A DNA stretch of 34,071 nucleotides from Candidatus Fibrimonas sp. (GTDB taxonomy: Bacteria > Fibrobacterota > Fibrobacteria > Fibrobacterales > Fibrobacteraceae): assembly GCA_031273195.1 (NCBI GenBank), contig JAISSJ010000177.1, positions 1 to 34,071 on the forward strand. The letters run 5' to 3'. Positions 4,353 to 33,972 of the stretch are shown piece after piece (positions within the stretch are counted from its first letter, which is position 1; each line of letters begins with the position of its first letter). Both the position numbers and the translations under genes were made by a program. The notes under the pieces are model-generated. The model was not told the origin of the DNA. It was given only the letters and a program-made list of their open reading frames with translations, and ran no database searches.

Positions 4353-4381
4353 TTTTTCATATTTTCTTTGTTTTTTATTTC

Positions 4382-4387
4382 TATATT
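4382..4387 (+). promoter_or_regulatory. Putative -10 box of the 4395 FISUMP gene
   Basis: TATATT, preceded by TTTC, exactly 7 nt before the ATG at 4395, in the T-rich gap after lptG. Confidence 0.4.
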
Positions 4388-4394
4388 TACCCTA

Positions 4395-5243
4395 ATGGCT
4401 CATTTTCACACAAAACCCCTAAAAAAGAGTTCTTTTATGAAAGTACTTGCAATAACATTGATATTCTTTGGCTATTCCGCTGCCGGGCAAGGCGATTTTT
4501 ATTCGGATTTACGGTTTTCTCTTGGCGGTAAACCATTTGAAGCCAAGAAAAGTTCTGCCCCAGAACGAAAAGAAGTTAAACCAAAAACAAAAGAAACCAA
4601 AGTAAAAGAAACCAAAGCAAAAAAAGAAGTTAAACCAAAAAAGGAAATTAAACCAAGAGAAACCGTACGAAAAGATGAAGCTAAAGCAAAAGAAGAGGAG
4701 GCAGCACGAAAGGCTTCTGTACAAAGCGACCAGAGGGACGGCAAAACATATAAAATCGCAAAAATAGGCTCGCAAACCTGGATGGCAGAAAATTTGAATT
4801 ACAACGCAAGCGATAGCAAATGTTATGGCAACGATGAAAGCAATTGCCAAAAATACGGACGTCTTTATGATTGGAATACAGCCATAAAAGCATGTCCTTC
4901 CGGCTGGCATTTGCCAACCCAAGCGGAGTGGGAATTGATGGCAACTTATATAGGCAGCGAGAGCACTGAGGGAAAAAGACTGAAAACAACGAGCGGCTGG
5001 AATGATTATCAAGGAAAATCCGGCAATGGTACAGACGAATTCGGCTTTTCGGCCCTGCCGGGCGGCGGCGGCTATTCGGATGGCCGTTTCACCAGTGCCG
5101 GCTACTACGGCTATTGGTGGAGTGCCAGCGAAGGCAATAGCAACGGTGCCTACATCCGCTACATAAATTATAACTACGAGAACGCTACATGGTACAACAT
5201 CAATAAATCTTACCTGTTCTCTGTCCGTTGCGTACAGGACTAG
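4395..5243 (+). CDS. Secreted FISUMP-domain protein with charged linker
   Basis: About 282 residues. A signal sequence (KVLAITLIFFGYSAAGQ) is followed by a repetitive Lys/Glu/Pro-rich linker (about residues 52-107, with recurring KETK and KEVKPK units) and a C-terminal FISUMP domain (about 114-282: IGSQTWMAENLNY, CQKYGRLYDW, GWHLPTQAEWE, GFSALPGGG, YWWSAS, SVRCVQD). The function of FISUMP domains is unknown; they are abundant on exported Fibrobacter proteins. The start at 4395 is preferred for its -10 geometry; the ATG at 4437, directly before the signal sequence, is the alternative. The charged linker could span periplasm or peptidoglycan, which is inference. Confidence 0.85.
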   Translation: MAHFHTKPLKKSSFMKVLAITLIFFGYSAAGQGDFYSDLRFSLGGKPFEAKKSSAPERKEVKPKTKETKVKETKAKKEVKPKKEIKPRETVRKDEAKAKEEEAARKASVQSDQRDGKTYKIAKIGSQTWMAENLNYNASDSKCYGNDESNCQKYGRLYDWNTAIKACPSGWHLPTQAEWELMATYIGSESTEGKRLKTTSGWNDYQGKSGNGTDEFGFSALPGGGGYSDGRFTSAGYYGYWWSASEGNSNGAYIRYINYNYENATWYNINKSYLFSVRCVQD

Positions 5244-21574: not shown

Positions 21575-23467
21575 TTAAAATTGCATATGCCCAATCCCAA
21601 TGCAAATAGAAAAATACCGTGCATCGCGACCCTTAATTTGAGGCATATGATATTGCCCTTCGAGAAAAAGTATAACATAAACTAATCCTGTTCCGGCAGA
21701 TAATACAGGTGCCCAACCCCTCGGCCCTGAAATTCCATCGCCACTCTTCGTTTTAAAGCTATAATTTCCATAATAGCCCAAGCCGGCACCTCCCGACAAA
21801 TACCAAGACAAGTTTTTGGAACTCACCGGATATAAACTTGCGAAAGCACCAATCTTAAACAAACCTCCAGGATTAGGAGACCTATCGATGTCGGGATGTA
21901 TTCTTTTGAACACATCATCGTCAGTAAAAATGAAGCCAAGATCCATACTTAGCCCCAAGCGGATAAAATCAGCACCCCCGTAAAAGAATTCACTGCCTAA
22001 GGAATAGAAAATGCCTCCTCCTGAATGGGTAGAATCAATAGAGTTCATCATAATTAGTGCACCAGGAATAGGAAAGACTATAAAAGGAAACCAATGCCAA
22101 GAGGTTCGATCCGCCTCTATTCTCGCTTTTCTAGCCGCTTCTTCCTTCGCTTCCATATTTTTTGCTTGCTGCCGCTGCCGCTCCAGCTGCTCCTGCTGTG
22201 CTCTCCGTTCCTCTGCTTCTCTCCGCCGCTCCGCTTCCTGCCGCTCCCGTTCCATGCGTTGCTCCCTCGTCTCATGCACAACATATTCCACTTTGCCATT
22301 ATGTTTCAATTCAACATCTACCCTTTCCCTGCTTCTCCCAATCTCTATCTTGGCACACAGAGGAACCGAGCCGCTGAATGGCGTTTCCCCGACTTGCCTG
22401 CCATTCACAAAAACAGGCTCGCTCGCAGGCTCTCCGTTCCGCTCCGCCCTCAAAACCAAACCGCCTTTCTTCAATGATATGTTCCTGGCTATATCAAAAA
22501 CTTCACGCTTGCCCTTATTTATACCCACCTTAAAACCTATATTTTCATAACATTCGTGACTGAGCTTAACCTCATAACTGCCGGGGAAAAGCCTTATTTC
22601 GCCCAAAGAGTAAGATTTATCGCTTATTGACAAATTCCATTGCCTGTTTGTGCCTATGCCGTCCGAGTAAGCGGGATTTATTTCCAAAACCCCGAAATTC
22701 GGTTTCAACGCTATCGCTATGTTTTGGTTGTTCTGTTTTATGGAAACGGTTGTGTCTGCTGTTTCGTATTGCTCCAACCTTGCGATTATGCGAACACTGC
22801 CTTCGGGAAACTCGGTTTTGCAAGGCGTTTTGTTGCATCTGTCGTCAGGCAAGCCGTTAAAACTCAAAGCGGCTCCTTGCGGCTCGGAGCTTATGTTTGC
22901 CAGATAACGCTTTTCATCGTCAAATTCATAATCAACCGCTCTTTCCAAATCTCTTATGCCGCCGGGAACAGGAGGCAAAACAGCTTTTCCCCGTGAAGCA
23001 GCGCCGGGTATTTTCATAAAGCCATCGGGAAGTTTTTTCTCCATAATGGCACGTAAACCATTGATATCTTTTGTGTCGTCGGTAAACTTGTCAATAAGCC
23101 CGGAAGTGCTCACTTTGTACAACTCAAAATCTATTGTCAAATTAGAGCCAAATTTCCCAAAACGGCATTGCGCTACATAATCCACCATCGCCTTTCTTCC
23201 CAACTCCACAATGCACGAACTTTCTTTGCATTCTTTGACATAACTGTCGAATCCGCCCAAACGCTTGATTACAACCTCTTGCGGAAAAACCTCAAAGCTG
23301 CTTTGCGACAAATTGTTAACAGCTATTTCCTGAGCCTTGCTTGTGAGAAATTCCAATTCGTCTTTGCTGAGAATTCCATCGGAGGGCAACACGGCCACAG
23401 TTTGCTTGGCAGCAAAAATCGCCTGAACGCAGACAGCTATGATAAGCAAGAAAAAATTTATTCGCAT
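21575..23467 (-). CDS. PEGA-domain envelope protein with coiled coil and C-terminal barrel-like domain
   Basis: A 630-residue protein. ATG 23467 is used because it has GGAG 6 nt upstream and starts a signal peptide (RINFFLLIIAVCVQAIFAAK); the longer open frame only reads back through intergenic repeat A. The N-terminal part (about 20-165) resembles TolB/FlgT-type domains (QTVAVLPSDGILSKDEL). PEGA-like units follow (GAALSFNGLPDDRCNKTPCKT; GGLVLRAERNGE...VFVNGRQVGETPFSG). Residues about 395-454 are an Arg/Glu/Gln coiled coil. Residues 455-630 look like short amphipathic strands with GLGYYGNYSF and an aromatic C-terminus, so an outer-membrane domain is possible. Last gene of the surface-protein locus. 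Confidence 0.8.
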   Translation of the reverse strand: MRINFFLLIIAVCVQAIFAAKQTVAVLPSDGILSKDELEFLTSKAQEIAVNNLSQSSFEVFPQEVVIKRLGGFDSYVKECKESSCIVELGRKAMVDYVAQCRFGKFGSNLTIDFELYKVSTSGLIDKFTDDTKDINGLRAIMEKKLPDGFMKIPGAASRGKAVLPPVPGGIRDLERAVDYEFDDEKRYLANISSEPQGAALSFNGLPDDRCNKTPCKTEFPEGSVRIIARLEQYETADTTVSIKQNNQNIAIALKPNFGVLEINPAYSDGIGTNRQWNLSISDKSYSLGEIRLFPGSYEVKLSHECYENIGFKVGINKGKREVFDIARNISLKKGGLVLRAERNGEPASEPVFVNGRQVGETPFSGSVPLCAKIEIGRSRERVDVELKHNGKVEYVVHETREQRMERERQEAERRREAEERRAQQEQLERQRQQAKNMEAKEEAARKARIEADRTSWHWFPFIVFPIPGALIMMNSIDSTHSGGGIFYSLGSEFFYGGADFIRLGLSMDLGFIFTDDDVFKRIHPDIDRSPNPGGLFKIGAFASLYPVSSKNLSWYLSGGAGLGYYGNYSFKTKSGDGISGPRGWAPVLSAGTGLVYVILFLEGQYHMPQIKGRDARYFSICIGIGHMQF

Positions 23468-23501
23468 TTCGGGCTCCATTCTTTGATTTCCTTTTCCCAT
23501 T

Positions 23502-23567
23502 TTCCCCACAAGTTCACCTTTGCCAAACCCTTGGGGAAAAATCAAGGTCTGGGAGGTTTGCACCACT
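23502..23567 (-). repeat. Intergenic leader repeat, copy A (5' of PEGA gene)
   Basis: Most diverged of five copies. The stem CCAGA-CCTTG / CAAGG-G-TTTGG is kept by a G-T wobble, and the TTTTCCCC/GGGGAAAA pairing is kept, but the upstream hairpin (GYACC/GGTGC) is lost and the Shine-Dalgarno lies farther away. Confidence 0.85.
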
Positions 23568-23587
23568 AACCGCCAATAAAAAACGCC

Positions 23588-25054
23588 TTATAGCGTAGTG
23601 GCGGAAACAGGGTCTGATAGTTGTCCATCCCTAGCTTTCACCTTGTAATAGAATGTCGTAGCGGTTGCCAGATTACGGCTAGTATACGATAAAGCACTAC
23701 CAGCGTAGCCAAGCTCTGTATAAGGTCCTGAGGAACTTTCCGCTATATAAACGTAGTACCCGGAGGCGAAGGTTACAGCATTCCAACTGATAGTGATACT
23801 GTTTGACGAAACCGCCTCCGCAGTTACACTGGTAGGAGCACGCAGAAGCACGGTTGCGTTAACGTAACTCGATTGATCTCCCTCCAAAGTATTATTACGC
23901 ACTGATACTTTATAATAGTAGTTAGCGTTTGACGCTAGTTCTGTGTCGGTATATGAGTTTGACGTTGAAGTTCCAATTTCGGCGTAAGTGCCGGAATAAC
24001 TTTCGCTCCTGTAAATACGGTAAGCCGTGGCGTTCGCAAAATCATTCCAAGTGATAGTTATACTGCTCGATGTAAGGGACTCCGCTTTTACGCCGGAAGG
24101 AGCAGTCAGTAGCGTAGTGGTGGAAACAGAGTCTGATAGTTGCCCATTTGCAGCTTTCACCTTGTAATAGAATGTCGTGGCGGTTGCCAGATTACTGTTA
24201 GTATACGATAAGCTACTAGTGCCGTTAACAATCCGTGTATAAAGTCCTGAGGAACTTTCCGCTCTATAAACTTCGTAAGAGGAGGCGCTAGTTACGGCGT
24301 TCCAACTGATAGTGATACTGTTTGATGAAGCTGCCTTTGCAGTTACGTTGGTAGGAGCATGCAGAAGCACGGTTGCGGAAACGGAACTAGATCCATCTCC
24401 CTCCAAAGTATTATTACGCACTGACACTATATAATAGTATCTAGTGTTTGGCGCTAGTTCTGTGTCGGTATATGAGTTTGACGTTGAAGTTCCAATTTCG
24501 GCGTAAGTGCCGGAAGAACTTTCGCTCCTGTAAATACGGTAAGCCGTAGCGTTCGCAAAATCATTCCAGGTGATAGTTATACTGCTCGATGTAAGGGACT
24601 CCGCTTTTACGCCGGAAGGAGCAGTCAGTAGCGTAGTGGCGGAAACTGGGTCTGATAGTTCTCCATTATTAGCTTTTACCTTGTAATAGAATGTCGTAGC
24701 GGTTGCCAGATTACGGCTAGTATACGATAAAGCACTACCAGCGTAGCCAAGCTCTGTATAAGGTCCTGAAGAACTTTCCGCTATATAAACGTAGTACCCA
24801 GAAGCACCAGTTACGGCGTTCCAACTGATAGTGATACTGTTTGACGAAACCGCCTCCGCAGTTACGTTGGTAGGAACGTTTTTGTTACCGCTTCCACTGC
24901 TATTGTCGCCCCCACTGCTATTACCGCCTCCACCATTACTACTGCTGGATATACCATTGCCATCTTCTTCCCATTCAACCGAGCAGGAAAGGGCCAAAGC
25001 CAAGGCAAGCGAAATGCTTGCCGCCAATGCGAATTTTGAGACTGTTTTGTTCAT
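23588..25054 (-). CDS. Lipoprotein with five fibronectin type III repeats
   Basis: A 488-residue protein. Lipoprotein signal (ALALALSC, C24), a Gly/Ser/Asn linker (about 34-58), then five Fn3 domains in the order A1-B1-A2-B2-A3 (61-144, 145-232, 233-316, 317-404, 405-488). Type A starts PTNVTAEA and contains SITISWNAVT; type B starts PSGVKAES and contains SITITWNDFANATAYRIYRSES. The final domain ends exactly at the stop, with no catalytic domain. Such arrays serve as spacers or adhesive stalks on cell surfaces. AGGAG 5-6 nt before the ATG follows repeat B. Confidence 0.88.
   Translation of the reverse strand: MNKTVSKFALAASISLALALALSCSVEWEEDGNGISSSSNGGGGNSSGGDNSSGSGNKNVPTNVTAEAVSSNSITISWNAVTGASGYYVYIAESSSGPYTELGYAGSALSYTSRNLATATTFYYKVKANNGELSDPVSATTLLTAPSGVKAESLTSSSITITWNDFANATAYRIYRSESSSGTYAEIGTSTSNSYTDTELAPNTRYYYIVSVRNNTLEGDGSSSVSATVLLHAPTNVTAKAASSNSITISWNAVTSASSYEVYRAESSSGLYTRIVNGTSSLSYTNSNLATATTFYYKVKAANGQLSDSVSTTTLLTAPSGVKAESLTSSSITITWNDFANATAYRIYRSESYSGTYAEIGTSTSNSYTDTELASNANYYYKVSVRNNTLEGDQSSYVNATVLLRAPTSVTAEAVSSNSITISWNAVTFASGYYVYIAESSSGPYTELGYAGSALSYTSRNLATATTFYYKVKARDGQLSDPVSATTL
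23591..24874 (-). repeat. Higher-order 516-bp tandem repeat encoding Fn3 pairs
   Basis: Alternating units of 252 bp (type A) and 264 bp (type B): A1 24874-24623, B1 24622-24359, A2 24358-24107, B2 24106-23843, A3 23842-23591. The lengths sum exactly to the region. A1 and A3 are closer to each other than either is to A2. Confidence 0.85.
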
Positions 25055-25066
25055 AAAAACTCCTAT

Positions 25067-25140
25067 TTCCCCGTCAGTTCACCCTTGCCAAACCCTTGGG
25101 GAAAAAATCAAGGCTTGGCTGGTTTGCACCGTTGTGGTGC
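25067..25140 (-). repeat. Intergenic leader repeat, copy B (5' of Fn3 lipoprotein)
   Basis: Starts on the minus strand with hairpin GCACC-acaac-GGTGC, then the GCCAA/TTGGC and CCTTG/CAAGG stem, then GGGGAAA directly next to the AGGAG of the Fn3 gene. Confidence 0.9.
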
Positions 25141-25156
25141 GACTTGTTCATAAAAC

Positions 25157-26719
25157 TCACTCCCTAAAGTCAAACGGAATAGTTGGCGTGGTATTGCCGC
25201 TCTTTATGGCTTTCCACTTCCAAGTGCCTACCATATTCTTAACAGCGTTGTCAAATCCGGCATAACTTGTTGTGCTGGACACTATGGAAATGTCAATAAT
25301 GTCGCCACCTGGAGCAATGGTAAATTTGAGCGTAACTTTGCCGCTAAAACCAGGTTTTAACTTTAAATACTTATTGTAGATGTTCCTCAAACCGGGCATA
25401 CGGGCATTAACAACAGCCATTATTTCCGCTTTGGAACGAGCCCCGTCACCGGAACCCATATCTATATCTCTTGCGCTTGGGGCCTTAAGAGAGCCTTTCG
25501 CTTTTGAGCCTATGCCACCTGCACTGCCACCCATCAAACCGCCCATCATATCGCCGATACCGCCTGAACCGCCTTCTGCGTAGCCATCGTTAAGGCCATC
25601 TGTGGCAGAACTGCGACGACCGCCAAATTCGGATTTACCGCTGTATTCTCCCTCGCCTTTCAGGCAGCGAACGCTTAATTTGTTTGATTTGCTGTAACTA
25701 ATATTCATCATCTCTGTTGAATTGTATAGCATACCGGCACCAACAATGCTCTGATAATTTCTCGTGGCCGTCCACCAATATCCGGATATATTTTTACTTG
25801 AACTCGGCAAAGCAGAAAAGCCATAGCTATCCGAATTGCATTTGCTTGACTTTGTCTTTCGCCCCCTATCATCAATATCCGTCAATTCACAATTCCACTT
25901 TTCCCATCCGTTTCTCGCTTTGAGCTTCTGCCCGGCAATTTCCGTGCCGCCAGCGGAAGCCGCAAGGGTTTGCCATTCTTCATAGCTCGGCAAATGCCAC
26001 CCGTCAGGACATGCCAGCCTTGCATTTTCCCAGTCATAGAGCCTCCCGTACTTTTGGCAATTTGCCGGCTCATTATCAGAGCAAGCACCGATATCTTCAT
26101 CTTCACCTGCGTAATCCAAATTCTTCGCCATCCAAGTTTGCTCACCTATTTTCACGGTTTTATATGTTTTGCCATCCCTTGGGTCGGTAAATGTATTAGC
26201 TGAGGCGGGCTCGTCTTCGTAATTTTCTACCCTTTCCAAATTTCCATTTCTGTCAAAATATTTCCATTCTCCGTGTTTATTGCCGTTTTTGTAATTTCCC
26301 ACACAATACAAATATTTTTTATTGTCTTCAAAATCATATCGAAACTCTTTCCATTCTCCATGCAATTTGCCATCTTCATAATTTGTCGTAATGTTTACTT
26401 CATCGTCTCTCTTTTCCCATTTTCCGTGCAACTTGCCTTCCTTGTAATTTTCTATGTATGTTTCACCTTCGTTAATCGTTTCCATTTTTCCATGCCACTT
26501 GCCATTTTTTATATTTCCTATATAATAAAAGAGGCCACACCCTCCACAATCTTCATTGGAATATTTAACCGTCCCTGTGTACGGTTTATTCTGATAGAAA
26601 TAAACATCATCTATTTTCTGCAATTTATCTATATTAATTGGTTCACTGGAGTACACCACAGGTTGCAAAGCAATCGCAATTACTACCAGCACATTGAGAA
26701 TTCTCGTTCTCTTTTTCAT
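25157..26719 (-). CDS. Exported MORN/YwqK-like + FISUMP + AgmX/TonB-like protein
   Basis: A 520-residue protein. Signal peptide (1-25), MORN/YwqK-type repeats (about 60-170: NGKWHGKME, EGKLHGKWE, DGKLHGEWKE, NGNKHGEWKYFDRNGN), a FISUMP domain (about 179-354), a Gly-rich and Ser-rich linker (365-430), and a C-terminal AgmX/TonB-like domain (about 435-520: PGFSGKVTLKFTIAPGGDIIDISIVSSTT...FDNAVKNMVGTWKWK). The start at 26719 has AAGGAG and a signal peptide; the longer frame reads through repeat C. AgmX/TonB-type C-termini are periplasmic in motility and transport proteins. Three module types in one protein is unusual. Role unknown. Confidence 0.88.
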   Translation of the reverse strand: MKKRTRILNVLVVIAIALQPVVYSSEPINIDKLQKIDDVYFYQNKPYTGTVKYSNEDCGGCGLFYYIGNIKNGKWHGKMETINEGETYIENYKEGKLHGKWEKRDDEVNITTNYEDGKLHGEWKEFRYDFEDNKKYLYCVGNYKNGNKHGEWKYFDRNGNLERVENYEDEPASANTFTDPRDGKTYKTVKIGEQTWMAKNLDYAGEDEDIGACSDNEPANCQKYGRLYDWENARLACPDGWHLPSYEEWQTLAASAGGTEIAGQKLKARNGWEKWNCELTDIDDRGRKTKSSKCNSDSYGFSALPSSSKNISGYWWTATRNYQSIVGAGMLYNSTEMMNISYSKSNKLSVRCLKGEGEYSGKSEFGGRRSSATDGLNDGYAEGGSGGIGDMMGGLMGGSAGGIGSKAKGSLKAPSARDIDMGSGDGARSKAEIMAVVNARMPGLRNIYNKYLKLKPGFSGKVTLKFTIAPGGDIIDISIVSSTTSYAGFDNAVKNMVGTWKWKAIKSGNTTPTIPFDFRE

Positions 26720-26733
26720 GTACAAACTCCTTT

Positions 26734-26806
26734 TTCCCCGCCAGTTCACCCTTGCCAAACCCTTGGGGAAAAATCAAGGCTTGGCTGGTTTGCACCACTG
26801 TGGTAC
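26734..26806 (-). repeat. Intergenic leader repeat, copy C (5' of MORN-FISUMP gene)
   Basis: Hairpin GTACC-acagt-GGTGC (one G-T wobble), the GCCAA/TTGGC stem, and the longest leader pairing of the five (TTTTTCCCC with GGGGAAAAA), which runs straight into GGAG. Confidence 0.9.
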
Positions 26807-26823
26807 GATTTGGTTCCTTTACC

Positions 26824-27486
26824 CTATAATAAGTTAAGCGGGTCGTCACTTTTTCCCCGATTATTTTTGCTAGATAACAAGTTAAGCGGGTCACTCTTTC
26901 CCAGAGTATTCTCGCTAGATGATAAGTTAAGCAGGTTACTTGCTTCCTGAGTATCCTTGCTAGATGATAATAACTTTTCTAGGATATCCCCGCCTTCTTC
27001 ATGTTTTGCACAATGTAGAGTAAAACCAGCCAATCCTGCGTATATGAGCAAAATAAACCAGTTATTTCCGGTTAACTTAAAAGCTCCTTCGTAATAACCT
27101 GAGAGCTTAATATGTGCAGCTATTAAGAATATGATTTTAACAACTAAACCCGCTATGGAAACATTACGCAATACAATGAAAGACTTGTTCGTAAATGCGA
27201 ATACTAACAAAACTGCAGGGATAATTATTAATGCGAAAACAAGCGGATAACCGTCATCCTTATTTTTACTAACTTTATTAGCTGCATTAAATAATTCCCC
27301 TTTACCTGTAGCGATTTCCCAACCAGAAGCCGTTAGGCTATCATCTTTGGAACATTTCGCTAAAGGACAGGCAAAGAATAATACGCACAATGCAAATGCG
27401 CATATCTTGACAATATGCCTAAAATTATTTTTTTCTGTTGTCGGATTCATGCCCAACCGCTTCAGCAATTCCTCTTCCGTGTTCAT
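26824..27486 (-). CDS. Multi-pass membrane protein with C-terminal LNLL repeats
   Basis: A 220-residue protein. About four hydrophobic segments (about 24-42, 83-100, 106-126, 140-157) with a short periplasmic or cytosolic loop between the first two. The C-terminal tail (about 177-220) is a degenerate repeat of about 16-19 residues: ASNLLNLSSSENTLGKSDP, LNLLSSKNNRGKSDDP, LNLL, with matching DNA repeats (TAAGTTAAGCGGGTC and variants). The N-terminus MNTEEELLKRLGMNP looks cytosolic. No family is recognised. It is the only gene in the 21.5-33.8 kb locus without a signal peptide, and it is more AT-rich than its neighbours. GGAG sits just before the ATG, after repeat D. Confidence 0.75.
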   Translation of the reverse strand: MNTEEELLKRLGMNPTTEKNNFRHIVKICAFALCVLFFACPLAKCSKDDSLTASGWEIATGKGELFNAANKVSKNKDDGYPLVFALIIIPAVLLVFAFTNKSFIVLRNVSIAGLVVKIIFLIAAHIKLSGYYEGAFKLTGNNWFILLIYAGLAGFTLHCAKHEEGGDILEKLLSSSKDTQEASNLLNLSSSENTLGKSDPLNLLSSKNNRGKSDDPLNLL

Positions 27487-27504
27487 ATCTCCAATTACTC
27501 CAAT

Positions 27505-27577
27505 TTCCCCGCCAGTTCACCCTCGCCAAACCCTTGGGGAAAAATCAAGGCTTGGCAGGTTTGCACCACTGCGGTGC
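27505..27577 (-). repeat. Intergenic leader repeat, copy D (5' of membrane protein gene)
   Basis: Hairpin GCACC-gcagt-GGTGC (fully Watson-Crick), the GCCAA/CCTTG stem, then GGGGAAA followed at once by TTGGAG. It starts 3 nt after the upstream stop codon. Confidence 0.9.
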
Positions 27578-27580
27578 GAT

Positions 27581-29374
27581 TTACTCTTTCACGCAACGAA
27601 CATAAGCCAAGCCAGATTTATCATCGTTGTCCCAACGTAATCTACCACGGTTAAGATCCATGTTTGTGGTATATGCACGAGAAGCACTGCTTTCTGTGGC
27701 ACTCCACCAGTAGCCAAAAGAACCAATGCTGTTAAATCTACCGCTGGAATAGCCTTGACCACCCGGCAAAGCAGCAAAACCATAATCATCCGTGCCATTT
27801 CCGTCATTGCTCCATCCGTTTTTTGCCCTTAATTTTATGCCGGCAACGTTCTCACCGCCAGCAGCCGTCATTAACTCATTCCACTCCTTATAGCTCGGCA
27901 AATGCCAACCGCCCGGACAAACTCCCTGCACTTTTTCATCGTTACCGTCAAACTTCTTCCAGTTATACTCTCTGTCAAGACCCATTGCCTCGCTCCAGTC
28001 GTAGAGACGGCCATACTTGTCGCAATTTTCCGGATTGCGAATTTGTTCCCTCGGTCTATCTCCATAGCACAAACCGAGATAACCATCATCAACATAGTTC
28101 AAATTCTGTGCCATCCAGGTTTGAGTGCCGATTTTAATTGTTTTGTATGCTTTATTATCACGAGAATCAGTAAAGCTGCCCGATGCAGCCGCTATTGCTC
28201 TAAGCCGCCCCTCGTCTATTTTTTCTATCAGCCTTTCATACATATATTCATACATATCTTCATCTTGATAATTCAAAGAAAAACCGATTGCATTTTGCAT
28301 AGTTGCTGACAAATATTCATTAATATCCTTTCTAGTTGTTTCATACAAAGGCGGAACGATGAAATTGCCAGTTTTATTTATAAAGCCAGTTTTGTCCTCA
28401 GTATTAACTGCCATAGCATAATCGCCGCTAAACGGAAAGGCAAGAAGAAATTGCGGATTTATTATGATTTGTCCTTTTCTGTCTATGTAAGCCCATTTTT
28501 CGCCCATTCGCACTGCGGCAAGTTTGCTTCCGCTAAATCCTGTTGCATTATCAAATTGCGGATTTATGATTATCTCGCCTTTTTTATTAACCCAACCCCA
28601 TTTTTTTCCAACCTTGGCTAAAAACAATCCATCGCAGTCATATACTAATGATTCATACTGCGGATTTACTACAAAACTCCCTTCTTTGTCAATAGCACCC
28701 CATTTAGTGCCGCTCAAAATAGTTGCCATTCCGTCATTGAAAAACGAAATATCATCAAATTGTGCATTTATCACAATTTCACCGCTTTTGTTTCTGTAAC
28801 CAAATTTTTCAGTCTTTTTATCTTGAAAGCGATATAATCCGTCTTTCATAAAGGGGACTGACTTTTCTTCGGCTGCTGTGGCAGCTACAAGTTCCCCTTT
28901 TTTATCTATAAACATCGTTAATCCATGTTGCCCTTGGCTATAGACATTTATTCCTGCTATACCGCCGTTAAAAGGATAAGCGGCGGTTAAGGAGTCTATT
29001 TGCAGGAGCGTTTTGCCTTTTTTATCAATGAGCATAGGGGGTTGGTTTTCCAATTGCACCCAAGCCACGCCTTCGCTGAAGTTCTGTGCTTTGCTATAAA
29101 CCGGAGCTATTATAAACTTGCCTCTTTCGTCTATATAACCCCATTTTCCTTCTTCGCCGCTAGTTTGGACAAGTGCTAATTCGTCTCTGAACATAAGTGC
29201 TTGCTTGAACTGTGGGTTGATCACGATTTTTCCATTCTTAGAAATATCAATGTACTGATATTCCTCATTTGAACCCTTAATGGGAACTATTGAAAAATTC
29301 GCTTCTGTTTTATTCCCGCAAGCAAAGCAGAAAATTGCTGCCGCTGCGATGAATGTTAATTTTACCTTTTTCAT
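27581..29374 (-). CDS. WG-repeat + FISUMP lipoprotein
   Basis: A 597-residue protein. Lipobox FCFAC (C19) after KKVKLTFIAAAAI. Residues about 30-380 hold some nine WG (KWG) repeats of about 40 residues, e.g. KWGYIDERGKFIIAPVYSKAQNFSEG and KWGWVNKKGEIIINPQFDNATGFSG. A FISUMP domain fills about 400-597 (IGTQTWMAQNLNY, CDKYGRLYDWSEAMGLD, GGWHLPSYKEW, GFAALPGGQG, YWWSATESS, YVRCVKE). It is a close paralogue of the protein at 31109-32812 over its whole length. A surface-exposed binding role is plausible but unproven. GGAGA precedes the ATG; no leader repeat is present, the gap to the next gene being only 26 nt. Confidence 0.9.
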   Translation of the reverse strand: MKKVKLTFIAAAAIFCFACGNKTEANFSIVPIKGSNEEYQYIDISKNGKIVINPQFKQALMFRDELALVQTSGEEGKWGYIDERGKFIIAPVYSKAQNFSEGVAWVQLENQPPMLIDKKGKTLLQIDSLTAAYPFNGGIAGINVYSQGQHGLTMFIDKKGELVAATAAEEKSVPFMKDGLYRFQDKKTEKFGYRNKSGEIVINAQFDDISFFNDGMATILSGTKWGAIDKEGSFVVNPQYESLVYDCDGLFLAKVGKKWGWVNKKGEIIINPQFDNATGFSGSKLAAVRMGEKWAYIDRKGQIIINPQFLLAFPFSGDYAMAVNTEDKTGFINKTGNFIVPPLYETTRKDINEYLSATMQNAIGFSLNYQDEDMYEYMYERLIEKIDEGRLRAIAAASGSFTDSRDNKAYKTIKIGTQTWMAQNLNYVDDGYLGLCYGDRPREQIRNPENCDKYGRLYDWSEAMGLDREYNWKKFDGNDEKVQGVCPGGWHLPSYKEWNELMTAAGGENVAGIKLRAKNGWSNDGNGTDDYGFAALPGGQGYSSGRFNSIGSFGYWWSATESSASRAYTTNMDLNRGRLRWDNDDKSGLAYVRCVKE

Positions 29375-29400
29375 GGTTATCTCTCCTATTTTGAGTTTGT

Positions 29401-31095
29401 TTAATCGTCCCAGCCACCTTTATCATCGCTAGATAAATTTACCCCTGATTCGATTGTAAATTCTTTACGTTTATTATCATTGATATATACAGCATGGCCC
29501 CTGCGTACCAATACGCCGTCAATATCCCTAACTATATTGCCATTGCTCTGGTCATCTTTATATCCGGTAATCGTTCCACCTGTTTTAGTAAAAGCTTCAC
29601 GCCAGTTATCACTAACATATACTCCACCGCCATTTTCGTTGGCGGTATTGCCTGTGATAGCACCGCTACGCATGGTAAATCTATAATTCAAGTGTACCCC
29701 ACCGCCGCGACTGGCAGTATTATCGAATATATTTCCACCAGTCATGGTAAAAGTTCCTCTTTCCACATACACTCCACCACCATTTTTAGATGCAACGTTA
29801 CCAGAGATAATTCCATTGCTCATGTTGAAGGTTCCATGGTACACACTCACACCGCCACCCTCAGATGCTTTATTACCGGATATAGTTCCGCCACTCATTG
29901 TAAAAGTTCCTCTTACATCCACACCACCACCCCGAAAATTTGCATTTCTGCCATTATCAGAAATGGTACCGCCAGTCATTTCAAAGGTTCCCGATTCCAC
30001 ATACACTCCGCCACCTTCACCACCTGCATTGCCGGTAATAGTTGCTCCGGTATTCATTTTAAGCACTCCGCCTTTTACGTCAATCACGTTACCCTTGTTA
30101 CCGTTGTGACCATGAAGGGTAATGTTGTTATCCAAAATAAATGTAACATTAGATGTTACAGTAAACATTGTGCCATTGGTTGAAAGCCTGATAGTTCGGT
30201 TTTCGTAATCGCCTCTTAGAACTATGGTAATGTTGATTGCTCCTTTGTACTCAAATTTATACGGAGCGATATTTTCATTGGCGTTTACCTCAATTATATA
30301 GGTATTATGGCTTTCTGCGTTTCTTTCCAGCCAAGCCAACTTTCTGGCAAGGGTACTCCCCTGTAGAATAGTACCTTCGTTTGTAACCTCAGTGGTAAGC
30401 GGATTAGCAGCTTCCATTGCATTAACTGCTTTTTTTTCAGCTTCTGCTGTTGCCATAGCAGTTTGTTTGGCAGCAAGTTTATCTGGCAATTTTCCCTCGC
30501 CTTTCAGGCAGCGTACGCTTAGTTTATTTGATTTGCTGTGATTAGTACTCATAATCTCTATTGAATTGTTTAGCATATAGGAACTAACAGCGCCCGACCA
30601 ATTTTCCGTGGCTGTCCACCAAACACCTAATGTATTTTTACTTGAACTTGGCAGAGCAGAAAAACCATAGTTATCCGAATTGCATTTGCTCAACTTTTTC
30701 GTTCGCCCCCTGTCATCTGTCGCTGTCCATTCGCAATCCCATTTTTCCCACCCGTTTCTAGCTTTGAGCTTCTGACCAGCAGTTTCCTTACCGCCAGCGG
30801 AAGCCGCAAGGGTTTGCCATTCCTCCAAACTCGGCAAATGCCAACCGTCAGGGCAGGCCAGCATCGCATTTTCCCAGTCATAGAGCCTCCCATACTTTGG
30901 GCAATTTTTCGGGTCATCATCAGGGCAAGCACCGATGTCTTCATCTTCACCTGCGTAATTCAAATTCTCCGCCATCCATGTTTGGGTGCCAATTTTCACA
31001 ATTTTATACTTTTTGCCATCTCTTGGATCGTTAAAAGTGTTTTGTGCAAAGGTTGCAACGCAGAGCAGCAATAATAATGCTATGAGGCTTTTCAT
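29401..31095 (-). CDS. FISUMP + polymorphic-membrane-protein-like beta-helix protein
   Basis: A 564-residue protein. Signal peptide (KSLIALLLLLCVATFAQ), FISUMP domain at about 22-205, an Ala/Lys-rich helical linker (about 205-250), then a right-handed beta-helix-like region (about 265-545) of repeats such as GGGVYVESGTFEMTGGTISDN, GGGVSVYHGTFNMSNGIISGN and GGGVYVERGTFTMTGGNIFDN. These are like Pmp-type repeats of chlamydial and treponemal surface proteins. The FISUMP part is very close to that of the 25157 gene (NYAGEDEDIGAC, SAGG-x-E-x-AGQKLKARNGWEKW), yet the flanking domains differ completely, which points to domain shuffling. AAGGAG precedes the ATG. Confidence 0.87.
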   Translation of the reverse strand: MKSLIALLLLLCVATFAQNTFNDPRDGKKYKIVKIGTQTWMAENLNYAGEDEDIGACPDDDPKNCPKYGRLYDWENAMLACPDGWHLPSLEEWQTLAASAGGKETAGQKLKARNGWEKWDCEWTATDDRGRTKKLSKCNSDNYGFSALPSSSKNTLGVWWTATENWSGAVSSYMLNNSIEIMSTNHSKSNKLSVRCLKGEGKLPDKLAAKQTAMATAEAEKKAVNAMEAANPLTTEVTNEGTILQGSTLARKLAWLERNAESHNTYIIEVNANENIAPYKFEYKGAINITIVLRGDYENRTIRLSTNGTMFTVTSNVTFILDNNITLHGHNGNKGNVIDVKGGVLKMNTGATITGNAGGEGGGVYVESGTFEMTGGTISDNGRNANFRGGGVDVRGTFTMSGGTISGNKASEGGGVSVYHGTFNMSNGIISGNVASKNGGGVYVERGTFTMTGGNIFDNTASRGGGVHLNYRFTMRSGAITGNTANENGGGVYVSDNWREAFTKTGGTITGYKDDQSNGNIVRDIDGVLVRRGHAVYINDNKRKEFTIESGVNLSSDDKGGWDD

Positions 31096-31108
31096 TTTCT
31101 TTTTCTCC

Positions 31109-32812
31109 TTATTTTAAATCCTGAACGCAACGTATTGAATACATAAACGTCTTGCTGAGGTTAGTTTCATATAAGAAATCCATATCATGACTCAGGCGGC
31201 GGCGGCGCGCATTGTATACGTTTTGTTCCGTAGAAGTCCACCAATCGCCTTCCGTACCAATTTCACTGAAACCTTTATCATATCTGCCGCCGGGTAAAGC
31301 CGTAAAACCATAGTCGTCTATGCCATTGCCGTTTTTATCCCAACCGCTTGCCGCCTTCAATTGTTTGCCAGCCGTTGTAAAACCGACAAATTCCTTGAGA
31401 ATTTGCCATTCCTCACTGCTCGGCAAATGCCATCCTTCCGGGCAAGCTCCCTGCACTTTCTCTTCACTGTTGCCAAACTGTTTGCGGTTATAGGTTCTAT
31501 CCAAACCCATTGCCTCGCTCCAATCGTAAAGGCGGCCGTATTTTTCGCAATTCTCCGGGTTGAAAATTTGCTTTCTCGGCTCATCTCCATAGCATAAACC
31601 TAAATAGCCATCCTCGCCACGATAGTTCAAATTCTGCGCCATCCATGTTTGCTTGCCTATTTTTATTGTCTTGTACTCACTGCTGTCCCTTAGGTCAACA
31701 AATGAGCCTCTGGCATATATCATCCTCTTTTCCTTTAATTTTTCATAGCTGGAAAACCGATCATCCTCAATAGAGAAAGCATTTTCATATAAAGGCGGGA
31801 CAATAAATTCGCCTTTATTGTTTATAAAGCCAATCTTGCCGTCATTGCTCGCCACCTTAGCCCAATTTCCGTCAAATGAGTAAGCTACGCTAAACTGGGG
31901 ATTGATTTTTATTTCACCCTTGCGGTCTATGTATGCCCACTTGTTGCCCATCTTAACTGCTGCCAGTTTGTTCCCTGCAAATTCCGCCAAGCTGTCATAT
32001 TGCGGATTTATGATGATTTCACTCTTTTTATTCACCCAGCCATATTTTTTCCCGGCCTGAGCAGTGAACAACCCATCGCAGTCATAATGCAAACTATCAT
32101 ATTGCGGGTTTATTATGAAATTTCCGCCTATGTCAATTACTCCCCACTTGTTGCCAACTTTGACTGCCGCCATTTCATCAGCAAAAGGCGATGCTTCTTC
32201 AAACTGCTGATTAATCACAGTTTCGCCATTCATGTTTTTATAGCCCCATTTATCTATTGCGGCATTTTTGAAAGCGTAAAAGCCATTGCTGAATACGCCA
32301 ATTTTTTCTCCTTTCGTCACTGCTGCTGCACTGGTTCCGTTTTTGTCTATGAATATTCCTGTTTCCGTGCCTCTGCCGTAAACCTCTAGGGCAGCGATTC
32401 CTTCTTTGAATGGAGTAGCTGCTATCAGCGAATCTATTTGCAGAATAACTTTACCCTTTTTGTCTATGAGCATGGGTGGCTGCCCTTCCATCTGTACCCA
32501 AGCAACTTCTTCGCTAAAACTCTGTGCTTTGCTATAAACCGGAGCTATTATGAATTTGCCTTTATTGTCTATGTAACCCCATTTTCCTTCTTGGCCGCTT
32601 GCTTTCACCAAAGCCAAGCCGTCTTTAAATATATGTGCTTCGCCAAACTGCGGATTGATTACAATTCTTCCCTTTTTGGAAAGGTCAATGTATTGATATT
32701 CGCCGTTTGCCCCCTTGATGGGAACTATGGAAAAATCTTCCCCTGTTTTGCTTTCGCAAGCGAAAAGCAGAGCAGCGACTGCGGCAATGAATGCTAGTTT
32801 GCCCTTTTTCAT
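31109..32812 (-). CDS. WG-repeat + FISUMP lipoprotein (paralogue)
   Basis: A 567-residue protein. Lipobox ALLFAC (C19). WG repeats at about 30-345 (e.g. KWGVIDIGGNFIINPQYDSLHYDCDG, KYGWVNKKSEIIINPQYDS), then FISUMP at about 370-567 (IGKQTWMAQNLNY, CEKYGRLYDWSEAMGLD, GWHLPSSEEWQ, GFTALPGGR, DWWTSTEQN, SIRCVQD). It matches the 27581-29374 protein nearly end to end and differs mostly in an internal segment before FISUMP that is shorter here. It lies directly downstream of leader repeat E, 13 nt upstream of the FISUMP/beta-helix gene. Confidence 0.9.
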   Translation of the reverse strand: MKKGKLAFIAAVAALLFACESKTGEDFSIVPIKGANGEYQYIDLSKKGRIVINPQFGEAHIFKDGLALVKASGQEGKWGYIDNKGKFIIAPVYSKAQSFSEEVAWVQMEGQPPMLIDKKGKVILQIDSLIAATPFKEGIAALEVYGRGTETGIFIDKNGTSAAAVTKGEKIGVFSNGFYAFKNAAIDKWGYKNMNGETVINQQFEEASPFADEMAAVKVGNKWGVIDIGGNFIINPQYDSLHYDCDGLFTAQAGKKYGWVNKKSEIIINPQYDSLAEFAGNKLAAVKMGNKWAYIDRKGEIKINPQFSVAYSFDGNWAKVASNDGKIGFINNKGEFIVPPLYENAFSIEDDRFSSYEKLKEKRMIYARGSFVDLRDSSEYKTIKIGKQTWMAQNLNYRGEDGYLGLCYGDEPRKQIFNPENCEKYGRLYDWSEAMGLDRTYNRKQFGNSEEKVQGACPEGWHLPSSEEWQILKEFVGFTTAGKQLKAASGWDKNGNGIDDYGFTALPGGRYDKGFSEIGTEGDWWTSTEQNVYNARRRRLSHDMDFLYETNLSKTFMYSIRCVQDLK

Positions 32813-32830
32813 GTTTTGAACTCATCTCCT

Positions 32831-32903
32831 TTCCCCGCAAGTTCACCCTTGCCAAACCTTTGGGGAAAAATCAAGGCTTGGCTGGTTTGCACCACTGTGG
32901 TAC
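32831..32903 (-). repeat. Intergenic leader repeat, copy E (5' of WG-FISUMP gene)
   Basis: Hairpin GTACC-acagt-GGTGC; the stem keeps GCCAA/TTGGC with CCTT/AAGG; GGGGAAA runs directly into GGAG. It starts 9 nt after the upstream stop codon. Confidence 0.9.
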
Positions 32904-32912
32904 ATTTTTGTC

Positions 32913-33809
32913 TTAGTCCTGCACACAACGCACACTAAACAGGTAAGACTTGAAGAGGTTACTTGAACGGGCGTACTCGCCGTTATAATAAATGTAACCA
33001 TAGCAGGAACTATCGACAGTATCATCTTCATCGGCACACCACCAATAACTACGGTCGCTAATGGCGTGGAAGATGATACCATCTGGAAAATCTGAAAAGA
33101 AACCACCACGACCGCTTGACAGAGCCGAAAAGCCGTAGTTGTCTGTGCCATTGCCGTCGCTGTTGTTTTCGCTGTTGTAATTCCAGCTTGTTGCCGCTTT
33201 TAAATACCTGCCCGCTGAATTATCCCTATCATCACCTTCTCCACCATTATCAATATCCACAAAACGGAACAATTCATCCCAATCGTCACGGCTCGGTATA
33301 TGCCAACCTGCAGGACAAATACCTTGATGATGAGGTGAGTTTATTTGACTTGAGCAAAAATCCGAATTACAGCTTGACGGAAGGTTCATCGCTGTTGACC
33401 AATCGTAAAGACGGCCATATTTGTCGCAATTGGCTTGCACTTCAGCGGGCGATAATGTTTTTGTAATGGGATTATTATCTTCGTCATAACCTATTAAAAC
33501 TTCACCACCTTCGCCGTAGCACTTGCTTCCTGCAACGGCGTAATTCAAATTCTCCGCCATCCAAGTTTGTGTGCCGATTTCAACGATTCTATATGGTTTT
33601 CCGCCATCCCCACCGCCACCACCGGACGATGAACTGATACCCAACGTGCTACTGGATAAACCGCCGCCGGAGGAATTGGAAACACTGCCTTGAGAGCCTT
33701 CGCTACTTGAGGAAGAACCGCCACCGCCGTCATCGTCTGACGAGCAGGAAAGGGTGAGTACCATAGCCGTAACCGCAGCCGCCAATGAAATAAACTTAAC
33801 GTTCTTCAT
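32913..33809 (-). CDS. FISUMP lipoprotein with Ser/Gly-rich linker
   Basis: A 298-residue protein and first gene of the locus. ATG 33809 has AGGAGG 6 nt upstream and begins a lipoprotein signal (AMVLTLSC, C22); the longer frame to 33866 is unsupported. A low-complexity linker of Ser, Gly and Asp (about 23-70) leads into a FISUMP domain (about 75-298: IGTQTWMAENLNY, CDKYGRLYDWSTAM, GWHIPSRDDWDELF, GFSALSSGRGG, YWWCADEDD, SVRCVQD). It carries an insertion (GEVLIGYDEDNNPITKTLSP) between the first two motifs. Function unknown. Confidence 0.88.
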   Translation of the reverse strand: MKNVKFISLAAAVTAMVLTLSCSSDDDGGGGSSSSSEGSQGSVSNSSGGGLSSSTLGISSSSGGGGGDGGKPYRIVEIGTQTWMAENLNYAVAGSKCYGEGGEVLIGYDEDNNPITKTLSPAEVQANCDKYGRLYDWSTAMNLPSSCNSDFCSSQINSPHHQGICPAGWHIPSRDDWDELFRFVDIDNGGEGDDRDNSAGRYLKAATSWNYNSENNSDGNGTDNYGFSALSSGRGGFFSDFPDGIIFHAISDRSYWWCADEDDTVDSSCYGYIYYNGEYARSSNLFKSYLFSVRCVQD

Positions 33810-33948: not shown

Positions 33949-33972
33949 GGGGGGGGGGGGGGGGGGGGGGGG
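33949..33972 (+). repeat. Poly-G tract, 24 nt
   Basis: Twenty-four uninterrupted G residues about 140 bp upstream of the first FISUMP gene. Confidence 0.65.

Follow-up and report, generated by a model that had tools for sequence, protein, structure and literature searches.

A run of FISUMP genes in a termite-gut Fibrobacterota genome, probably diversified by segment exchange and retroelement hypermutation

Introduction

The FISUMP domain occurs in very many copies in the fibre-degrading Fibrobacterota. In the available sections of the published accounts FISUMPs are taken as putative cellulose-binding proteins or as cohesin-like analogues (PMC4704652, PMC3625147). In one of these sources 17-119 FISUMPs were counted in nine of ten Fibrobacterota genomes and none in the tenth (PMC4704652). 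The domain of these FISUMP/Fib_succ_major paralogues (TIGR02145, PF09603) and the scale of their copy number are the same as in the genome studied here, where 115 FISUMP matches were found. However, those sections mention neither module exchange nor a retroelement, both of which are described below, and we noticed neither for Fibrobacterota FISUMP families in the portion of the literature consulted.

Another closely related system is the diversity-generating retroelement (DGR) of Treponema denticola, in which a template and a reverse transcriptase (RT) act on dispersed targets, several of them predicted lipoproteins, as appears to be the case here. Its target TvpA has a C-type-lectin fold, as predicted here for FISUMP (PMC4891356; PDB 2y3c). 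According to the available part of that source, T. denticola isolates carry a DGR with two to seven targets (PMC4891356), whereas we found four targets changed at template adenines only among eight loci of one sister genome and 17 footprinted genes in the partial genome of the window, with swapped bodies. DGR variable proteins with Fib_succ_major or DUF1566 domains are known from human microbiomes (Fib_succ_major n = 9) and thus share the Pfam domain of the DGR target described here. However, the described example has an Mfa2 domain, and the link to the large Fibrobacterota families is not drawn in the sections available (PMC4159848).

Results

The window, i.e. the whole stretch of 34,071 nucleotides that was analysed, comes from a termite-gut bacterium whose genome is a MAG of 186 contigs and 61% completeness; chimeric contigs are possible in principle in such data. 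It was studied within a genus set of 12 genomes, in which the labels G001-G008 denote genus relatives, with G002 and G005 being genomes of sister species. The features are collected in Table 1, where W1, BH and W2 are nicknames of the 31109, 29401 and 27581 genes.

Table 1. Positions of genes, FISUMP domains and intergenic elements in the window.
Feature	Position	Strand	Evidence or parts
First gene of the run, lipoprotein-type, FISUMP at the C-terminus (32913 gene)	32913..33809	-	PF09603 110 bits, TIGR02145 145 bits
Start of the 32913 gene (ATG)	33809	-	read from sequence
Two-hairpin element, copy 1	32828..32905	-	model R1, 87.4 bits
W1, WG-repeat and FISUMP gene (31109 gene)	31109..32812	-	WG_beta_rep 198 bits, PF09603 104 bits
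FISUMP domain of W1	31118-31708	-	
BH, gene with signal peptide, FISUMP and repeat/helix part (29401 gene)	29401..31095	-	FISUMP 30490-31041
Hypervariable patch of BH FISUMP (aa 157-190)	30526..30627	-	entropy peak; dN/dS 1.9 vs 25157 gene
W2, WG-repeat and FISUMP gene (27581 gene)	27581..29374	-	FISUMP 27584-28180
Two-hairpin element, copy 2	27502..27579	-	85.7 bits
Gene without known family, between W2 and the 25157 gene (26824 gene)	26824..27486	-	
Two-hairpin element, copy 3	26731..26808	-	90.8 bits
Gene read as chimeric (25157 gene)	25157..26719	-	MORN-like body 26198-26719, BH-type FISUMP 25645-26197, TonB/AgmX tail 25157-25643
Hypervariable patch of the FISUMP in the 25157 gene	25682..25783	-	
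Two-hairpin element, copy 4	25064..25142	-	85.7 bits
fn3-repeat lipoprotein-type gene (23588 gene)	23588..25054	-	
Two-hairpin element, copy 5, first hairpin degraded	23499..23575	-	60.8 bits
PEGA gene	21575..23566	-	N-terminal module 22967-23485
Sixth FISUMP of the window	4725..5240	+	in gene 4368-5243, PF09603 match

Five genes of the run (25157, 27581, 29401, 31109 and 32913) exceeded the cut-offs of PF09603 and TIGR02145. An earlier note on this DNA had assigned FISUMPs to the 25157 and 29401 genes and WG-FISUMP architectures to W1 and W2, and these domains were all found above the profile cut-offs. The note had also placed a second-type FISUMP gene after each WG gene; this holds for W1, which BH adjoins, but after W2 the 26824 gene intervenes before the 25157 gene. 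In the 11 other genus genomes the 26824 gene was matched only once, in G004, by a sequence that carries three stops. For the 25157 gene, ATG 26719 is a more probable start than TTG 26758. Parts of the run recurred elsewhere: the BH architecture in G005 (L115:10523-11989), W2 relatives in G005 and G008 (66%), the element and leader of the 23588 gene twice on C39, a contig of the same genome (83-85% across some 160 bp), and the N-terminal module of the PEGA gene as the N-terminus of FISUMP genes on the own contigs C27, C167, C7, C160 and C44.

The predicted fold of FISUMP (AF2, pLDDT 86.5) aligned to C-type-lectin-like structures. The best structural match was TvpA (Z 10.7 over 153 residues), Lcl and FGE gave Z 8.9 and 8.3, and 14 of the 840 chains compared reached Z >= 8. 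Foldseek alone gave no PDB match to the model at E <= 0.001, with lectin-like domains in the top rows, and a sequence search of the PDB with the FISUMP profile gave none at E <= 1. According to the predicted model, FISUMP is a lectin-like head.

The FISUMP blocks of BH (31041-30489) and the 25157 gene (26197-25645) were 84% identical in DNA, and the two FISUMPs 77% identical in protein; the pair is a clear match, for which the earlier wording 'near-identical' was too strong. Identity was high throughout the domain except for a dip at the patch. It ended no more than about a dozen bases from the domain borders and dropped on both sides to an ungapped 0.20-0.37 within one 30-bp window. Greater likeness to other FISUMPs was confined to short stretches that mainly lie at the 5' end. 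The next-best FISUMP of the genome by score reached only 70% over about 280 bp, and therefore the match is neither chance nor family-wide. The pair had a dS of 0.47 [0.32-0.67], and the BH FISUMP was farther from its own orthologue (1.27 [0.83-2.40]). Judged by synonymous sites the pair appears young, and gene conversion would look alike.

The tail of the 25157 gene resembled that of the TonB gene in the ExbB-ExbD-TonB operon of the same genome (89-91% in DNA; dS 0.42 [0.28-0.61]), with a dS of 1.11 and 0.79 to the same TonB gene in G001 and G007, respectively. The FISUMP block ended at query position 1314 and the tail block started at 1316. The AgmX part named earlier was confirmed in this tail (NF033768, 65 bits vs a cut-off of 40). 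The proposed MORN part of the body was matched by MORN_2 with E 0.0003, below the Pfam cut-off, and the beta-helix proposed after the BH FISUMP by a Chlam_PMP repeat with E 0.002, with no family above cut-off; 'beta-helix' is a label read from the repeats. From its sequence, the 25157 gene is a chimera of a MORN-like body, a 29401-type FISUMP and a TonB-operon-like tail, and illustrates at base resolution how a bacterial gene can be put together from parts whose sources are identifiable; the direction of copying among these sources we infer. The TonB tail was also found on a PEGA body and on a 433-aa protein, both in G008. Both parts had matches in 42 FISUMP genes of the genome itself; the N-module and the head shared their best partner in 10 of these and had different ones in 32. 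The exchange of flanking modules suggested earlier, to be checked by identity along the locus and by comparison of strains, is supported by sharp breakpoints at the FISUMP borders, by sources in the same genome and by other module combinations in relatives.

The synonymous sites of W1 and W2 were saturated (pS 0.78 in the WG body), which points to an old duplication. G005 keeps the order WG, signal-FISUMP-helix, WG with one extra gene, and the block is flanked there by genes other than those in the window. The stretch of G005 that was read contains only one signal-FISUMP-helix gene and none resembling the 25157 gene. The two WG bodies of G005 had a dS of 0.63 compared to 2.43 [1.29-] for their FISUMPs, i.e. 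unlike FISUMPs lie under similar WG bodies, and the AU test rejected a clade of the W1_05 and W2_05 FISUMPs (p = 6e-5), a pair that was picked after the distances had been seen. The WG tree made W1_05 and W2_05 sisters with a support of only 52/32. The odd FISUMP of W1 in G005 grouped with second FISUMPs (92/85). An origin from a tandem FISUMP pair that lost its first member is not favoured, because this FISUMP was saturated against the second FISUMP of W2_05 (pS 0.79) when the WG bodies gave 0.43. The protein tree joined the BH_00 and 25157 FISUMPs (88/81), and a grouping of BH_00 with BH_05 was not rejected by the AU test (p 0.27).

An RVT_1 reverse transcriptase was detected in five of the 12 genus genomes (six matches). 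At all four RT loci that were read, a FISUMP-like stretch below cut-off lay in frame upstream of the RT, giving the RT with adjacent template that is typical of a DGR. Two of the loci also had an Avd-like neighbour, matched below cut-off by NF033474 (E 1e-6 and 5e-7, 29-30 bits vs a cut-off of 80) and likewise by bAvd. In G002, four of the eight dispersed FISUMP loci examined differed from the template only at A (22/65, 23/65, 32/65 and 36/65), each with 0/130 mismatches at non-A template sites; the remaining four had 10-19 non-A changes. A strong hairpin of their own followed just past the stop in two of the four A-only targets. By this pattern, FISUMP is a DGR target in this genus. Such targeted hypermutation of the FISUMP patch had been missed in the earlier note.

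Against the G002 template, the mismatch rate of the 71 VRs of the window's genome was 0.49 for A sites and 0.23 for the others. This ratio of 2.15 exceeded all of 86 pseudo-templates used as control (maximum 1.80, 97.5% point 1.65). The ratio was 1.97 with the G008 template and 1.71 with the G004 template, the latter under the control maximum and over the 97.5% point. Seventeen of the 65 alignable own VRs, chosen by their non-A likeness to the G002 template, had a mutual identity of 0.90 at non-A sites and 0.51 at A sites, compared with 0.65 for the remainder of the domain; these 17 FISUMPs are dispersed copies alike at non-A and different at A. Within the window, an A-bias was not clear for the FISUMPs of W2 (0.52 A vs 0.38 other), W1 (0.48 vs 0.47) and the 32913 gene (0.55 vs 0.36), and for the end of the sixth FISUMP the mismatches were 25/65 at A and 23/129 elsewhere. 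The aligned stretch was too short for BH and the 25157 gene, which were left out of this count, and their template was not found in the own 61%-complete assembly. Between these two, dN/dS was 1.9 inside the patch and 0.17 outside, and the differences by codon position were 10/10/5 inside and 8/19/35 outside. An active DGR in the window's genome is not claimed, because RT matches in its assembly were 0 at this completeness; we infer that the genome still has a DGR and that the window's own FISUMPs were once direct targets.

Five copies of a two-hairpin intergenic element lie in the region, and the element separates many genes of this kind. The gaps 31109/29401 and 29401/27581 are without it. 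Rfam gave no match in the window at gathering thresholds and none at the elements of three loci, with only microRNA-family noise elsewhere, and one copy compared with phage and plasmid collections had no match. In a first test with poor parsing the second hairpin was nearly null (0.619 vs 0.570, permutation maximum 0.619). The refined test gave 18.37 vs 17.10 (sd 0.26) for the second and 11.32 vs 9.05 (sd 0.29) for the first hairpin, both inflated by related copies, and the fold z-scores of five single copies were not significant. The element is unlikely to be an attC site, a terminator or a member of an Rfam family; it had no Rfam match in these searches, and attC core sites were not seen by eye. 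A role as DGR homing hairpin was not supported, because it lay downstream of 5/17 footprinted genes and 10/83 others (Fisher p 0.13).

Discussion

In our opinion the locus is likely one segment of a genome-wide FISUMP family that is diversified by segment exchange and DGR hypermutation. The family would consist of surface or periplasmic proteins with a common C-type-lectin-like head, FISUMP. Heads, tails and leaders would be copied in frame between genes by recombination, presumably of the ordinary homologous or illegitimate kind. The 25157 gene would have arisen from a MORN-like body, a 29401-type FISUMP and the tail of the TonB gene in the ExbB/ExbD/TonB operon, and the 31109/27581 WG pair would be an older duplication. 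The genus DGR, with its RT, Avd-like gene and template, would replace the final ~195 bp of dispersed FISUMP genes by a copy altered at the adenines of the template. This would re-draw the variable patch of the lectin, and the ligand that the patch presumably binds may be a plant polymer or a host or bacterial surface.

The earlier note had instead proposed that one unit of a WG-FISUMP gene and a second-type FISUMP gene was duplicated, with later exchange of the flanks of the latter. Two genes of each type do lie in the same run and order, but their synonymous ages are unequal (0.47 vs saturation), the 25157 gene is not directly after W2, G005 has, in the stretch read, only one signal-FISUMP-helix gene and none like the 25157 gene, and a rescue by conversion of the second FISUMP after an old duplication takes an extra step. 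Duplication of such a unit is thus quite improbable. The run is better explained by a WG pair of old date enclosing a signal-FISUMP-helix gene, which a sister species also has, and by the later formation of the 25157 chimera. Ongoing gene conversion in place of a recent copy could also make the BH and 25157 FISUMPs alike, which we regard as rather unlikely. Pairs within the genome are nearer than orthologues in both FISUMP and helix (helix BH-B478 0.77, BH-BH05 1.34), and the FISUMP 5' end, 78-87% identical over 54-95 bp in many FISUMPs, could seed recombination. However, the identity is high over the whole domain apart from a dip at the patch and stops at the domain borders, and the TonB tail, another domain, is of similar age; the similar dS of FISUMP and tail (0.47, 0.42) fits joint assembly. 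A metagenome assembly artefact is extremely improbable as the origin of the 25157 gene. The genome is fragmented, and contig ends (C72/C73) interrupt its own TonB gene within the repeated tail, but the blocks differ by 16% and 9-11% from their nearest sources and are therefore not reads of those genes. Moreover, no common sequence that could misjoin contigs is visible at the junction, the reading frame is uninterrupted, and in another assembly this tail occurs on other bodies.

Ordinary diversifying selection with no DGR would agree with the lack of an RT in the own assembly and with the poor fit of the window FISUMPs to the G002 template. It would not, however, make dispersed genes more alike at the non-A sites of the patch (up to 98%) than elsewhere in the domain (60-65%), nor leave the four G002 targets free of non-A changes, and we hold it to be very improbable. 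Movement of whole genes as cassettes via the two-hairpin element, either in the manner of integrons or because its copies recombine homologously, is unlikely. The element is present in 12/12 genus genomes, 84 of the 96 copies examined sit -9 to 103 bp past a same-strand stop, and the two element-free gaps keep their order in G005 except for one extra gene, where the outer neighbours differ. Against this, no integron integrase was shown (the genome has four tyrosine recombinases), attC core sites were not seen by eye, very few gaps were compared, and the element is absent from the in-gene breakpoints.

If the FISUMP heads are retroelement-diversified lectins on exchangeable bodies, FISUMPs are better seen as changeable receptors or adhesins. 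This would predict binding residues, a reason for the many copies, and strain differences in a patch of about 60 residues. Through the mutated shared part these microbes may command a broad repertoire of receptors that can be changed. We tentatively suggest that termite-gut Fibrobacterota run a combinatorial receptor library, in which one template re-mutates dozens of lectin heads in trans and recombination moves the heads between bodies (WG, PEGA, helix, fn3, TonB tail), so that heads and scaffolds change independently of each other. Within such a system the two-hairpin element may serve as a signal for recognition or exchange.

ERIC and BOX are known intergenic repeats that are short, structured and dispersed between co-oriented genes, and the two-hairpin element is alike in these respects. 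It differs in that the Rfam searches made gave no match for it, and in that 63 of its 96 sampled copies follow a FISUMP gene.

The gene run

The window corresponds to contig C148 in a draft genome (1.96 Mb, 61% complete), in which the lectin-like FISUMP domain (PF09603) was matched in 115 places. In PMC4704652, FISUMP counts in Fibrobacteres are given as 17-119 in 9 of 10 genomes and 0 in the tenth. Two other genomes of the genus, G005 and G006, presumably come from termite guts.

Genes of the run, named by lower coordinate and listed from the 5' end
Gene	Order in run	Strand	Type or domains
32913	first	minus	lipoprotein-type, FISUMP
31109 (W1)	second	minus	WG-FISUMP
29401 (BH)	third	minus	signal peptide-FISUMP-helix
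27581 (W2)	fourth	minus	WG-FISUMP
26824	fifth, between W2 and 25157	minus	family not assigned
25157	sixth	minus	MORN-like-FISUMP-AgmX
23588	seventh	minus	fn3
21575	eighth, last	minus	PEGA

A possible slippage (phase-variation) tract, 24 consecutive C on the minus strand (33949-33972), precedes the first gene by about 140 bp. The 26824 gene was almost absent from the genus, and its C-terminal end holds a 45-bp tandem repeat in 3.2 copies (26826-26970). The fn3 gene carries an internal duplication (23591-24875), with DNA identity of 87% along 768 bp and 93% along 247 bp.

FISUMP borders and the 25157 chimera

The FISUMPs of BH and the 25157 gene were 84% identical in DNA over 553 bp, corresponding to BH aa 19-202; the TIGR02145 match in BH spans aa 20-198. 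Sliding ungapped identity was mostly 0.7-0.93 inside this block (stretches shown), 0.63 at the patch, a hypervariable stretch near the FISUMP end, and 0.20-0.37 outside, the drop taking about one 30-bp window per border. Divergence across the domains is thus not uniform, and the refuting condition set by the earlier note does not hold. Synonymous divergence (dS) of FISUMP was 0.47 (0.32-0.67) between BH and the 25157 gene and 1.27 (0.83-2.40) between BH and its counterpart in the same-genus genome G005.

The 25157 gene is, judged by its matches, a chimera of three parts. Its FISUMP match stops at query base 1314 and its tail match starts at base 1316. The tail matches (91% and 89-90% DNA) the C-terminal portion of the gene that comes last in a MotA/ExbB-ExbD-ExbD-TonB operon and lies on contigs C72/C73 of the same genome. 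When two C72 operon genes were run against Pfam, ExbB was recognised and the truncated TonB had no match; at the G001 operon locus 4/4 genes were recognised. Tail dS was 0.42 (0.28-0.61) to the own TonB gene, 1.11 to the same gene in G001 and 0.79 in G007, and because the own gene is nearest, the tail was most likely copied within the window's lineage. Among the matches listed, no frame with both FISUMP and the TonB tail was found outside the own genome. The synonymous ages of FISUMP block and tail agree (0.47 and 0.42), which fits a single assembly episode. The same tail is also carried by two proteins encoded on own contig C127 (84-85% DNA), which we take to be VIT-like, and in G008 once by a PEGA body and once by a 433-aa protein. 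The own TonB gene is split over two contig ends (L140 on C73, L141 on C72), both of which hold about 118 bp of the tail present in the 25157 gene; it was apparently at this repeat that the assembly broke.

History of the WG pair and module exchange

The earlier note had proposed duplication of one two-gene unit followed by exchange of flanking modules; its observation was partly confirmed and its interpretation partly supported. The single duplication was not supported, as synonymous sites are saturated between W1 and W2 (pS 0.78 in WG, 0.70 in FISUMP) whereas the second FISUMP pair has a dS of 0.47, and G005 keeps W1, a 421-aa gene, BH and W2 in one stretch (L115). Since the three genes stand together there, BH has by this comparison long been next to the WG genes; the 25157 chimera looks like a late addition to the locus. 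Exchange of modules was supported by the sharp FISUMP borders, the own-genome sources of the chimera and the discordance of WG and FISUMP in G005, where the WG bodies were 76% identical in protein (dS 0.63) and their FISUMPs 51% (dS 2.4).

AU tests, on clades chosen after the distances had been seen, rejected the G005 W1 and W2 FISUMPs as one clade (p 6e-5) and likewise the four first FISUMPs (p 0.0012), whose WG bodies group at 97/95 support; in the WG tree the two G005 bodies were sisters at 52/32 support only. One WG body, on own contig C160, terminates without FISUMP. The BH helix was nearer to a gene that lacks FISUMP on own contig C69 (dS 0.77) than to G005 BH (1.34).

The own loci taken gave 221 aligned pairs at ≥130 bp and ≥80% identity, within-gene repeats counted. 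An N-module was present in 54/100 own FISUMP frames; N-module and FISUMP shared their best partner in 10 of the 42 frames with matches for both parts and differed in 32, a rough split in which many matches are short leaders. In a clear swap case (contigs C105/C79) the N-modules were 94% identical over 253 bp and the FISUMPs alike over 89 bp only. The PEGA gene was matched 87 times in G008, and as judged by positions at least five of these matches (C1, C5, C43, C87, C114) stand in one open frame with FISUMP; PEGA is a second large expanded module family. At L081 (own contig C176:8076-9941) a tyrosine-recombinase match falls in a 409-aa frame near a FISUMP match.

A two-hairpin intergenic element

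Five copies of an element of about 78 bp with two hairpins lie in the gaps of the run, each ending shortly before the next start. When a model was made from 19 own copies and the best 150 candidates per genome were scored, it matched at E 0.01 in 12/12 genomes of the genus (4-55 each; 27 in the own genome). Among 96 distinct copies, a sample biased toward FISUMP contigs, the upstream gene was FISUMP in 63 and another gene in 21, with none within 300 bp on the same strand in 12. Both hairpins exceeded permutation, and in 110 rows fitted to the model the first showed compensatory changes (C-G 60/U-A 36 at one pair, G-C 44/A-U 40 at the next). The Rfam searches made gave no family for the element. 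We lean towards reading it as an RNA element of the leader or intercistronic kind, which would move along with gene ends and give homology for exchange. At L260 (G001:C76:12000-28825) seven elements, all on one strand, separate FISUMP and other genes within a stretch of about 11 kb.

A retroelement acting on FISUMP in the genus

The AlphaFold model of FISUMP (44 sequences, pLDDT 86.5) aligned best with Treponema TvpA (Z 10.7), the C-domain of Legionella Lcl (8.9), FGE (8.3) and C-type lectins. Within the 185-residue head, variability was maximal at positions 151-170 (protein aa 168-187; 2.2-3.0 bits, hardly any gaps).

Reverse transcriptase (RVT_1) was found in 5/12 genomes of the genus and had no match in the window's own genome (61% complete). 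At all four RT loci read (six matches in total) the RT-bearing frame opens with an Asn-rich FISUMP end; two neighbouring genes tested looked Avd-like, with scores under cut-off. In G002, four of eight loci differed from the template at 22, 23, 32 and 36 of 65 A sites and at 0/130 other sites; the other four had 10-19 non-A differences as well. Two of the A-only targets are on the RT contig, about 32 and 64 kb from the RT, and two on other contigs. The best of six G008 loci differed from the C8 template at 25/65 A sites and 1/130 elsewhere. On this pattern, a diversity-generating retroelement (DGR) is acting on FISUMP in the genus. DGR-diversified lectins and modular surface proteins are already known; what is new is the dispersed multi-target repertoire with exchangeable bodies. 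Strong hairpins begin a few bases past the stop of two A-only targets (L302 and L306, G002:C155); known DGRs have comparable homing hairpins.

In the window's genome, the mismatch of 71 variable regions (VRs) to the G002 template was 0.49 at A sites and 0.23 at other sites, a ratio of 2.15; the ratio was 1.97 with the G008 template (69 VRs) and 1.71 with that of G004 (63 VRs). With 86 own FISUMPs as pseudo-templates the median was 1.36 (95% range 0.83-1.65, maximum 1.80). In 17 own VRs picked for differing from the G002 template at ≤15% of non-A sites, pairwise identity was 0.90 at non-A sites, 0.51 at A sites and 0.65 in the rest of the domain; the top pair had 0.984, 0.585 and 0.601, and in 136/136 pairs likeness was higher in the VR backbone than in the remaining domain. 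Overwriting from one template would give this pattern; selection at the protein level would not.

For the FISUMPs of the window itself the DGR evidence is weaker than for this VR set: W1, W2 and the 32913 gene showed no clear A-bias against the G002 template, and BH and the 25157 gene were not countable. Between BH and the 25157 gene dN/dS was 0.17 over aa 19-156; over aa 157-190 it was 1.9, and pS was 0.15 there against 0.39 in the first part. Differences per codon position numbered 8/19/35 in the first part and 10/10/5 in the second. Between W1 and W2 they shifted from 30/35/69 to 19/20/18 in the patch.
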